From: a virus
Reading direction: 5' to 3' (one strand)
Length of the DNA stretch: 28,488 bases
IMG/VR virus record: IMGVR_UViG_3300017917_002005
Location: 1 to 28,488 of that record
Each line of letters starts with the position of its first letter. Position 1 is the stretch's first letter. This document shows, in pieces, positions 4,404 to 22,220 of the stretch. A program made the translations under genes and the position numbers. Below the pieces are notes generated by a model. It worked only from the letters and a program-made list of their open reading frames with translations. It was not told the DNA's origin and made no database searches.

Positions 4404-4571
4404 ATGTATAACCATCAGGAAGATATAGACCTATTAGAACGTATGGATCAAAAACGGTATCCAAAATGCTTCTATTGCCCTGATAAGCCATTATATACAC
4501 AGCCAGATAAGTCTACAGGTAAAATAGTAGATGTTTGTGATAAACACTTTATATTTAAGCACATGGCATAA
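4404..4571 (+). CDS. 55-residue zinc-binding protein, leaderless
   Basis: MYNHQEDIDLLERMDQKRYP followed by CFYC and later CDKH: a C-x2-C...C-x2-H treble-clef-like zinc site. ATG lies exactly 6 bases after TATAAT. The stop is inside a perfect palindrome (CATAAATATTTATG, 4567-4580) shared with the convergent gene to the right. Function unknown. Confidence 0.6.
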   Translation: MYNHQEDIDLLERMDQKRYPKCFYCPDKPLYTQPDKSTGKIVDVCDKHFIFKHMA

Positions 4572-20034: not shown

Positions 20035-20063
20035 ATTATATCCTAAGCTATTCTTGTTGTCAA
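20035..20063 (-). promoter_or_regulatory. Consensus promoter for the FmdB-type gene
   Basis: Minus strand: TTGACA (20063-20058), 17 bases, TATAAT (20040-20035): a perfect sigma-70-type promoter inside the end of the HNH gene. ATG at the predicted +1. Confidence 0.75.
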
Positions 20064-20318
20064 TCTGTTATAGGTTCTAATCCTATGACAGTTTGCACAA
20101 ACTACTTCACATTTTTCAATTTCACGTAAAATTGCTTTCCATGAAAATCCATCATGAATCATTCTAGAAACATTATACTTTTTATCTCTAATATGATCAA
20201 AATCAAGAACTATATGATTACTTTCACCGCAGTCTACACATCCACTTGCCACTTTTATTTCAGCAAGTTTTTTCTTATACTGCTGTTTAACTCTACTGGC
20301 TAGTTCTTTTTCAGTCAT
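20043..20318 (-). CDS. HNH endonuclease
   Basis: A 91-residue HNH nuclease: GCVDCGESNHIVLDFDHI and KCEVVCANCHRIRTYNR give the two CxxC zinc knuckles and the D-H...N-H catalytic set. It cuts DNA using a single metal ion and is probably a free-standing homing-type gene. TATAAT sits about 10 bases upstream of the ATG. Confidence 0.85.
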   Translation of the reverse strand: MTEKELASRVKQQYKKKLAEIKVASGCVDCGESNHIVLDFDHIRDKKYNVSRMIHDGFSWKAILREIEKCEVVCANCHRIRTYNRLTTRIA

Positions 20319-20445: not shown

Positions 20446-20865
20446 CTACTTGATTTTAATTGATTTAGGCTTCTTCTCTTCTGGAATAATTCTATCAATG
20501 TCAACATGAAGCATACCGTCCTTCATTTCGGCACCAGTTACTTCCATATATTCACCAAGAGCAAATGTTCTAGTAAACTTACGACCAGCAATACCCTTGT
20601 GAACAATTTCAGCATCTGTAACTTCAACAATTTCTCCCTTAATGATTAATGTTCCATTATCTACAGAGACATCAATATCATCTTTTGAGAAACCAGCAAC
20701 TGCCAAAGATAACTTAAAGGTATCTTCATCCAACTTAAGCAAATCATAAGGTGGATAATTTGTTTGGCGTGATGCTAATTGAACATTGCTCAATCTTTCC
20801 ATTTCACGATTGAAGCCAATAAAAAAAGGATCCTTAAATAGATCCCATGCAAATGAACTTACCAT
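20446..20865 (-). CDS. Hsp20/alpha-crystallin small heat shock protein
   Basis: About 139 residues from MVSSFAWDLFKDPFFIGFNR. The alpha-crystallin domain is clear: YPPYDLLKLDEDTFKLSLAV, AGFSKDDIDVSVDNGTLIIK, FTRTFALGEYMEVTGAEM, and a C-terminal IIPEEKKPKSIKIK. It holds unfolding proteins as oligomers. AAAGGAG precedes the ATG at 20865; a longer frame lacks a ribosome site. Its promoter overlaps a CIRCE-shaped inverted repeat. Confidence 0.9.
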   Translation of the reverse strand: MVSSFAWDLFKDPFFIGFNREMERLSNVQLASRQTNYPPYDLLKLDEDTFKLSLAVAGFSKDDIDVSVDNGTLIIKGEIVEVTDAEIVHKGIAGRKFTRTFALGEYMEVTGAEMKDGMLHVDIDRIIPEEKKPKSIKIK

Positions 20866-20895: not shown

Positions 20896-20954
20896 TTGTA
20901 CCCCCATTTGGCGGGTACAAGAAAATTATATCACATCTCTAGATAAATAGTCAA
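20896..20954 (-). promoter_or_regulatory. Hsp20 promoter with inverted-repeat operator
   Basis: Minus strand: TTGACT (20954-20949), 18 bases, TATAAT (20930-20925). TTGTACCC (20896-20903), 9 bases, GGGTACAA (20913-20920) is a perfect 8-bp inverted repeat across the expected start near 20918. The arm-N9-arm geometry is that of CIRCE (HrcA), but the sequence differs. In RNA the same arms could form a 5' hairpin. Confidence 0.65.
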
Positions 20955-21291
20955 TAGCTCTATTAAGTCTATCAATGCTATCTTGAAATACACCTAATCC
21001 TCTATTACAATTATGACAAATATGCCCTCTAAATGTATTTGTTTCATGGTTATGATCTACTACCCAGACACTAGCATTTCCACCAGTACCTTTCAATTCT
21101 TCTTCATCTTTTAAGCAAATAGGACAAACATATCCTTCTGGAGGATAACCATATATTTTTCTTAATTCTTCTCTTTCTTTAGATAGTTTTTTTGCACATG
21201 ATTTGCATTCAGGTCTTAAATATTTACCCCCACTTGATGGGGAAAACTCTGAATATGGTAGATTTAATTTACATTTACTACAAGTTTTCAC
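20926..21291 (-). CDS. Endonuclease VII-type HNH nuclease
   Basis: A 121-residue protein: zinc knuckle MKTCSKCKLNLPYSEFSP and CKSC, then GYVCPICLKDEEELKG, VWVVDHNHETNTFRGHICHN and CNRGLGVFQDSIDRLNRAID, the Endo VII (phage Holliday-junction-resolvase-like) signature. Starts with GTG; the only ribosome site is AGGAGG, which is the 3' acceptor strand of tRNA-Thr, 3 bases upstream. Probably a mobile or recombination nuclease. Confidence 0.85.
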   Translation of the reverse strand: MKTCSKCKLNLPYSEFSPSSGGKYLRPECKSCAKKLSKEREELRKIYGYPPEGYVCPICLKDEEELKGTGGNASVWVVDHNHETNTFRGHICHNCNRGLGVFQDSIDRLNRAIDYLSRDVI

Positions 21292-21292
21292 G

Positions 21293-21364
21293 AGCCTCCT
21301 ATAGGATTTGAACCTATGACATTTCGCTTACAAGGCGAACACTCTACCCCTGAGTTAAGGAGGC
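21293..21364 (-). tRNA. tRNA-Thr (TGT)
   Basis: Minus strand: acceptor GCCTCCT/AGGAGGC, anticodon stem TTCGC/GCGAA with CTTGTAA, T arm ATAGG/CCTAT with TTCAAAT. Reads ACA. Its 3' acceptor strand doubles as a Shine-Dalgarno sequence for the adjacent nuclease gene. Confidence 0.92.
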
Positions 21365-21366
21365 AT

Positions 21367-21464
21367 GTCTGGTATCCTAAACGGCCCAGCCAGACTCTAG
21401 GTGGCGTTCCCTCCATAGTCGTTTGATCTAGCCTTATAAAGGCTTACAGGGACGGTTCTACCGT
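21367..21464 (-). ncRNA. Three-hairpin spacer between tRNA-Glu and tRNA-Thr
   Basis: GTCTGG/CCAGAC (21367-21395), AGCCTT/AAGGCT with a 3-base loop (21430-21444) and ACGGT/ACCGT (21452-21464). No tRNA, gene or T run. May be a processing spacer or a structured RNA, similar in flavour to the segment at 9666-9833. Confidence 0.4.
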
Positions 21465-21470
21465 TATGCG

Positions 21471-21542
21471 TAGCTCTAGAGAGAATTGAACTCTCGTTTC
21501 CAGATTGAAAATCTGATGTCCTAACCACTAGACGATAGAGCC
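21471..21542 (-). tRNA. tRNA-Glu (TTC)
   Basis: Minus strand: acceptor GGCTCTA/TAGAGCT (one wobble), anticodon loop TTTTCAA (TTC), T arm GAGAG/CTCTC with TTCAATT. Reads GAA/GAG. From 21543 to 21624 I see no gene, only a possible promoter-like TTGCAG. Confidence 0.92.
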
Positions 21543-21624: not shown

Positions 21625-21697
21625 CGATCACGACCAGATTTGAACTGGCGACCTCCACAGTGACAGTGTGGCGTTCTAACCCCTGAACTACGTGACC
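21625..21697 (-). tRNA. tRNA-Asp (GTC)
   Basis: Minus strand: acceptor GGTCACG/CGTGATC (one wobble), anticodon stem CCACA/TGTGG with CTGTCAC, T arm GCCAG/CTGGT with TTCAAAT. Discriminator G, as usual for tRNA-Asp. Confidence 0.92.
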
Positions 21698-21701
21698 TTG
21701 G

Positions 21702-21775
21702 CTGGTCTGGTAGGACTCGAACCTACAACATCTCGGTTAACAGCCGAGTGCAACTGCCAATTGTGCTACAGACCA
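21702..21775 (-). tRNA. tRNA-Asn (GTT)
   Basis: Minus strand: acceptor TGGTCTG/CAGACCA, anticodon stem CTCGG/CCGAG with CTGTTAA, T arm GTAGG/CCTAC with TTCGAGT. Its first 10 bases are also the last codons and stop of the HNH gene at 21766. Confidence 0.92.
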
Positions 21776-22191
21776 ATATATTTTAATAAACTTTTTATTT
21801 TTTTAGGTTCATCATTTAATAAACCTAATGCAGTATTACATTGACTACATAATATACCACGTATACATTTACCACAAGAAGATCTTTGAGAGCTACAGCA
21901 AGAGTGGTCATGATCTATATTAATAGCTAATCTGTCTTTACATGAATGACATTTGCCATCATGCTTTTTCATTAGTTTATCATACTGCTCTTTTGTAAGT
22001 CCATGCCTTTTCCAATTAAAATCTGTTTTATTTTTTAACTGTCTTTTGTTTGGATTACTCTTATAGTATGTTGTCACATAAAAAGAATGACATTTTTTAC
22101 ACGTATTCCTTCTACCGTCTTTATATTTTGAACCTTTAGAAAACATATCCAGTTCTTTAGATTCTCCACACTTTATACATACTTTTTTCAT
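21766..22191 (-). CDS. Endonuclease VII-type HNH nuclease, leaderless
   Basis: A 141-residue protein: MKKVCIKCGESKELDMFSKG with two CxxC knuckles, then KHDGKCHSCKDRLAINIDHD and CIRGILCSQCNTALGLLNDE, the Endo VII motif. TATAAT (minus, 22203-22198) is exactly 6 bases upstream of the ATG. Its stop codon lies in the tRNA-Asn acceptor, so RNase processing of the tRNA would cut the message at its very end. Confidence 0.85.
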   Translation of the reverse strand: MKKVCIKCGESKELDMFSKGSKYKDGRRNTCKKCHSFYVTTYYKSNPNKRQLKNKTDFNWKRHGLTKEQYDKLMKKHDGKCHSCKDRLAINIDHDHSCCSSQRSSCGKCIRGILCSQCNTALGLLNDEPKKIKSLLKYIGL

Positions 22192-22220
22192 ATATATATT
22201 ATAGCATACTTTTGAGCTAT

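Follow-up and report, generated by a model that had tools for sequence, protein, structure and literature searches.

An endonuclease VII-type gene set flush with tRNA 3′ ends in a phage family, and its possible expression through tRNA processing

Results

Genes and features at the locus

The DNA analysed, referred to here as the window, spans positions 1 to 28,488 of the IMG/VR virus record IMGVR_UViG_3300017917_002005 (28,488 nt), and about 80 related loci, designated by L numbers, were fetched for comparison. The WhiB homologue of the window matches phages of Streptomyces, Rhodococcus, and Mycobacterium only, and for this reason the host is probably actinobacterial. A scan of bacterial genome contigs for the host returned three matches only, all of them distant and some short. 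The phages give the impression of being of a freshwater type. Two nuclease genes, termed endo1 and endo2, lie in an array of tRNA genes upstream of hsp20, and the features of this region are as follows (SD, Shine–Dalgarno sequence).

20446-20865, minus strand: hsp20 (PF00011), downstream of the insertion described below; the start is the second Met, after an AAGGAG SD
20897-20919, minus strand: hairpin just 3′ of the −10 box, conserved in the 5′ leader of hsp20 (26 distinct versions, with compensatory changes in the stem)
20925-20933, minus strand: hsp20 promoter, extended −10 box TGATATAAT, from alignment with L166, L153, and other empty sites; endo1 stops at the TAA within this box (20928-20926)
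20926-21291, minus strand: endo1, a 121-aa nuclease with an Endo VII motif, GTG start and TAA stop (PF02945, phrog_2633, Hpy99I)
21289-21291, minus strand: GTG start codon of endo1, 1 nt past the tRNA discriminator (N terminus conserved)
21293-21364, minus strand: tRNA-Thr(UGU), the 5′ neighbour of endo1 (Rfam, 70.1 bits; ARAGORN)
21294-21300, minus strand: SD-like AGGAGGC, the 3′ acceptor strand of tRNA-Thr (same acceptor at empty sites)
21471-21542, minus strand: tRNA-Glu(UUC) (tRNA call)
21625-21697, minus strand: tRNA-Asp(GUC) (tRNA call)
21702-21775, minus strand: tRNA-Asn(GUU), whose T8 A9 G10 is the endo2 stop codon (tRNA call and ORF overlap)
21766-22191, minus strand: endo2, a 141-aa nuclease with an Endo VII motif, ending inside tRNA-Asn (PF02945, E = 7.6e-17)
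22198-22206, minus strand: TGCTATAAT, a leaderless-type promoter 6 nt before the endo2 ATG (alike in the close relatives L082, L083, and L086)

Reading along the minus strand, AGGAGGC is followed by the discriminator T21293, by C21292, and then by the GTG at 21291-21289. The initial annotation had described the AGGAGG as the 3′ acceptor strand of tRNA-Thr with one base before the GTG, and this proved exact in Rfam and ORF coordinates, the base being C21292; ARAGORN places the 3′ boundary of the tRNA at 21292 rather than at the 21293 given by Rfam. The GTG is the earliest start codon in the 121-aa ORF, and the N terminus (M/V-K-T-C) is conserved in relatives both with and without tRNAs nearby. 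The start codon is credible because this N terminus is the same where no tRNA is close. The AGGAGGC strand (21300-21294) is base-paired with GCCTCCT, the 5′ strand of tRNA-Thr, and is ~ 98% paired in the folded tRNA (mean 2% unpaired). The anti-SD energy at endo1 is −10.2 kcal/mol, which ranks third strongest among 61 starts of the window, and the spacing from AGGAGG to GTG is only 3 nt, which is short for an SD.

The second claim of the initial annotation, that the other Endo VII gene ends within tRNA-Asn, was also borne out, as the TAG of endo2 occupies tRNA positions 8-10. In the nearest four relatives of endo2, the stop lies mostly just before tRNA-Asn.

Between tRNA-Glu and tRNA-Thr lies a spacer of 105 nt (21365-21469, minus strand) that is structured (−27.7 kcal/mol) and is 89% identical in L005; no sense-strand match to an Rfam family was found for it. 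In L002 and L003, ~ 400 nt separate the two tRNAs and include an ORF for an HNH-like nuclease, a third nuclease type in the array, whose ATG stands 6 nt after TGGTATAAT, directly after tRNA-Glu. An HNH-type nuclease gene also lies downstream of hsp20 (20043-20318, minus strand); it has no SD, carries TGATATAAT 9 nt before its ATG, and is found in some relatives and missing from others.

The endo1 protein

The endo1 product matches PF02945 (Endonuclease_7) over residues 49-117 of 121 (E = 4.8e-15) as well as phrog_2633, endonuclease VII, and its closest solved structure is Hpy99I (E = 6.4e-13). Residues D79, H80, H82, R88, and N96 are present together with four CxxC pairs, and the D, H, H, R, and N residues and the zinc cysteines C56/C59 and C92/C95 are conserved in the aligned relatives. 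The same five residues define the DHHRN homing endonuclease family that was proposed for F-CphI, in which the endonuclease clade carries the motif in the C-terminal part of the protein (PMC6083498). In endo1 the Endo VII motif is likewise C-terminal, which places it with the endonuclease clade and not with the resolvase clade. Judged by these residues, endo1 fits the DHHRN family, with putative functions in cleavage and homing. F-CphI differs in lying beside an intron-bearing psbA gene, and a tRNA association is not mentioned in PMC6083498. Domain and phrog searches returned no match to a GIY-YIG domain in endo1, which sets it outside the SegB family proper. Two cultured phages with more distantly related Endo VII proteins were examined (Streptomyces phage Spelly and Roseobacter phage CRP-738), and for neither is a tRNA gene listed beside the nuclease.

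Distance between the nuclease and the tRNA

Starts of ORFs of at least 60 aa were counted in 304 distinct tRNA contexts across all loci. Offsets of +1 or +2 nt account for 28 such starts, none was observed at 0 or 3-9 nt, and 25 of the 28 belong to the endo1-type nuclease family. The abutment of nuclease and tRNA is not a matter of chance. In these 25 distinct contexts the start codon, which is ATG or GTG (RTG) throughout, lies 1-2 nt past the tRNA discriminator, and the preceding tRNA is tRNA-Thr in 10, tRNA-Gly in 14, and tRNA-Glu in 1. At the junctions, tRNA-Thr gives TC followed by GTG (once by ATG), tRNA-Gly gives TCA or TCT followed by ATG, and tRNA-Glu gives AC followed by ATG. At one locus the tRNA itself differs (Gly in L010, L011, and L013, Thr in L012), and the 1-2 nt distance is kept.

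Other arrangements were also found. In L016, which has no tRNA-Thr, the nuclease follows tRNA-Asp after an 11-nt spacer, with GGAGGG 2 nt before the ATG. Some family members lie away from tRNAs; among them is a class with ATT starts (L028, L033-L037, L039, L040, L042-L049, L051, L052, and L077), which occurs only at loci that have no tRNA before the gene. In this class the ATT stands directly after the TAA or TAG of an upstream ORF and the end of the gene falls inside a tRNA-Met or tRNA-Ile further downstream, and the AUU start is possibly used through termination–reinitiation. The nuclease tree shows several changes of context; support for the deep branches is poor, and we therefore put no figure on the independent insertions.

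Insertion point and borrowed stop codons

Comparison of tRNA loci with and without the nuclease revealed a precise insertion of endo1 at the tRNA 3′ end. In the empty locus L166, the GGCTC of tRNA-Thr runs directly into TGTGATATAAT, while in the window the GGCTC is followed by GTG...AGA and then by TGTGATATAAT. In L153 and other empty loci, tRNA-Thr is followed by a few A-rich bases and then by TGGTATAAT, the extended −10 box of hsp20. By these alignments, the insert is essentially the ORF alone, with the end of the tRNA on one side and the hsp20 promoter on the other. It opens with the three bases of the start codon, and the last codons and the stop are supplied by the flank; the stop of endo1 is a TAA within the pre-existing TATAAT, and in 11 of the 14 filled hsp20 loci the nuclease likewise stops at the TAA of TGnTATAAT. 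The hairpin of the hsp20 leader (TGTACCCGCCAAATGGGGGTACA and 25 other versions) has the −10 box upstream of it and the SD downstream.

At the ssb locus the nuclease lies between tRNA-Gly and either tRNA-Arg or tRNA-Met. In relatives, the nuclease stop codon falls inside the tRNA, at positions 8-10 of tRNA-Arg and tRNA-Ile and at positions 21-23 of tRNA-Met. The gene is thus seen at the hsp20 locus, which exists in filled and empty forms, at the ssb locus, and beside Thr, Gly, and Glu neighbours, as a free-standing mobile gene would be. We lean towards the view that endo1 is such a gene, of the homing type and inserting flush with tRNA 3′ ends, and this view is held jointly with the mechanism of expression proposed below. 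The initial annotation suggested that both nucleases may have inserted at tRNA genes; the filled and empty loci lend this good support for endo1, and for endo2 it is likely.

Empty Gly–Glu junctions (L161, L154, L165, and L181) have the sequence GCTCTATGCC and filled ones (L023 and L031) the sequence GCTCTATGAA, and on account of this difference the nuclease ATG at this junction may derive partly from the tRNA spacer, through microhomology.

The acceptor strand as a candidate Shine–Dalgarno sequence

The initial annotation had further proposed that the acceptor strand is used as the SD of the nuclease. Across the relatives the distance to the tRNA is kept and the SD is not, and the proposal was not upheld. 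The acceptor 3′ strands before the nuclease are AGGAGGC, GGGGGGC, GGGAGGC, CGAGGGC, and AGCAGGC for tRNA-Thr, TATCCGC, TATCTCC, TATTCGC, and TATCTGC for tRNA-Gly, and TGGTGCT for tRNA-Glu. Anti-SD energies range from −10.3 to +1.9 over all contexts, with the Gly class between +1.9 and −1.5, and the acceptor as a conserved SD was rejected on this range. The Gly and Glu acceptors show little or no anti-SD match, L005 is also weak, and most variants of the Thr class have an SD-like strand. That strand is a property of tRNA-Thr, because the identical tRNA occurs in nuclease-free phages: the AGGAGGC acceptor is unchanged in L153, L161, L163, and L196 of the same family, and tRNA-Thr is identical at 73/73 positions between L153 (empty) and L008 (filled) and between L166 (empty) and L004/L006 (filled). 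On sequence comparison, the conserved feature is the flush contact with the tRNA end and not an SD. As part of the explanation favoured below, the AGGAGG of tRNA-Thr is rather probably incidental, and SD use may occur in the Thr class or in L016.

A leaderless signature in the phage family and a proposed route of expression

In the phage family, the commonest spacings between TGnTAnnnT and ATG are 6 nt (n = 90) and 7 nt (n = 46), with other spacings represented 0-28 times each, and 6 or 7 nt is the modal spacing in 37 of 71 protein families. This is a strong signature, at the level of sequence, of leaderless genes being common in this phage family. Genes of the window at 4404, 4771, 17340, 20318, and 22191 have no SD and carry a TGnTAnnnT ending 6-9 nt before the ATG, as do genes in many of the related loci. 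No such extended −10 box was found near the endo1 GTG, which ruled out a promoter inside tRNA-Thr for a leaderless endo1 start, and none was found between 21859 and 21281 on the minus strand from which a transcript without the 5′ acceptor strand could arise.

In mycobacteria, an ATG or GTG at the mRNA 5′ end is enough for translation, and near-leaderless starts (+2 to +5) seem weaker (PMC4633059). Mapping in Propionibacterium acnes placed the cut at the tRNA 3′ end between the two Cs of CCA (bases 74/75), with no tRNase Z homologue evident (PMC3848588). For endo1, the following route is proposed. The gene would be transcribed together with the upstream tRNAs, and the tRNA 3′ end would be trimmed endonucleolytically, either by a tRNase Z-like cut 3′ of base 73 or by one that separates bases 74 and 75, freeing an mRNA that starts at, or 1-2 nt before, the GUG or AUG. 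In the window, a P. acnes-type cut after C21292 would yield exactly 5′-GUG, and a tRNase Z cut would yield 5′-CGUG. The host ribosome would then initiate on the released mRNA without an SD, and tRNA maturation would yield the nuclease message instead of excluding the nuclease.

The mutual exclusion of tRNA maturation and nuclease translation, as put forward in the initial annotation, was not upheld at the start codon; on this leaderless reading, processing would create that start. On the 3′ side exclusion is plausible where stop codons lie inside tRNAs, since a cut by RNase P would take the stop away and leave a non-stop message. Plausible candidates are endo2 at tRNA-Asn and endo1 at tRNA-Arg, tRNA-Ile, and tRNA-Met in relatives.

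Discussion

The insertion point, the constant distance of 1-2 nt, and the borrowed stops follow from the comparison of loci, release of the message by tRNA processing is what we infer, and the explanation as a whole is held with moderate confidence. One point against the processing step is that after an RNase Z cut the message would still carry 1-2 nt ahead of the start, an arrangement that seems to be less efficient in mycobacteria. Flush insertion could also come from nothing more than target choice, the gene being little expressed where it sits. The nuclease would then cut conserved tRNA 3′ sequences and repair would set the ORF flush, so that the geometry would say nothing about translation, and expression would be low or borrowed from the context. 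The use of three different tRNAs at two loci (hsp20 and ssb) with ORF-only inserts is in keeping with this, as are T4 segB, a homing gene in a tRNA region (PMC2988022), and the enrichment of segB homologues near tRNAs (PMC13096335). As regards the insertion step, target choice is compatible with the favoured explanation. However, the distance persists over diverged alleles and through the replacement of one tRNA by another (L010, L011, and L013 versus L012), and every abutting start is the RTG that leaderless initiation requires; as a full account, target choice is a serious alternative that we consider unlikely.

Under the SD model of the initial annotation, the AGGAGG of tRNA-Thr would be blocked by the folded or processed tRNA, and transcripts left unprocessed or misfolded would be the only source of the nuclease, much like the hairpin-sequestered ribosome-binding sites of I-TevI, segB, and mobE. 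Known cases of such sequestration are segB and mobE (PMC2988022), the anti-SD match in the window is strong (−10.2) with the strand paired in the fold, and a GGAGG-like sequence is kept in L016 despite the absent tRNA-Thr. The Gly class without an SD, the weak matches of L005 and the Glu class, the identical acceptor in nuclease-free phages, the spacing of just 3 nt, and the lack of an extended −10 box in the 21859-21281 interval of the minus strand for a transcript without the 5′ acceptor strand all count against the model, and we regard it as improbable. Finally, abutting is frequent among small phage genes, and the tRNAs within these arrays are 1-5 nt apart, so a start beside a tRNA might be meaningless; but the concentration of starts at +1/+2, with 25 from one family and an empty zone on either side among the 304 contexts, and the existence of empty sites leave compact packing with very little probability.

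Animal mitochondria use tRNA punctuation, in which ORFs lie flush between tRNAs and some stops are made by polyadenylation. The endo1 arrangement resembles it in the flush ORF, in the leaderless or near-leaderless mRNA that processing would give, and in stops that overlap the next tRNA, and differs in its phage and bacterial setting, in concerning one mobile gene, in having stops encoded inside the tRNA, and in that processing is here the conjectural step. Actinobacterial leaderless mRNAs share with endo1 the RTG start and the lack of an SD, in a host group that probably fits (PMC4633059, PMC3848588), but their 5′ ends come from transcription start sites, whereas that of endo1 would come from tRNA cleavage. 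The closest likeness in gene organization is segB of T4/T6, also a free-standing mobile endonuclease gene among phage tRNA genes without an intron (PMC2988022, PMC13096335). SegB is a GIY-YIG enzyme and endo1 is of the Endo VII type, and segB has a predicted late promoter and a hairpin-sequestered ribosome-binding site, whereas endo1 has no constant ribosome-binding site and a start flush with the tRNA. Promoter-less homing cassettes and embedded promoters of downstream genes were already known (PMC2988022), and the association of segB with tRNAs is widespread (PMC13096335).

A literature search for tRNA punctuation or tRNA-released leaderless expression found no phage or bacterial precedent. 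What is new is an Endo VII-type family at tRNA 3′ ends, its constant contact of 1-2 nt over different tRNAs, and its borrowed stops; tRNA-punctuated leaderless expression is new as a possibility. The gene appears as a homing-type element cut down to its reading frame, with tRNA ends as its start context and a stop taken from the conserved tRNA bases U8-A9-G10 or from a promoter TATAAT. As a tentative proposal, this could be tRNA punctuation in a bacterial virus: a mobile ORF without a promoter, ribosome site, or stop of its own would be freed from the tRNA operon transcript by tRNA-processing enzymes and translated leaderless, and with the stop in the next tRNA, maturation would also limit expression. 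If the message is indeed freed by tRNA processing, phages would have reached the tRNA-punctuation strategy of mitochondria, and leaderless mRNAs would also arise in bacteria by way of tRNA 3′ processing.
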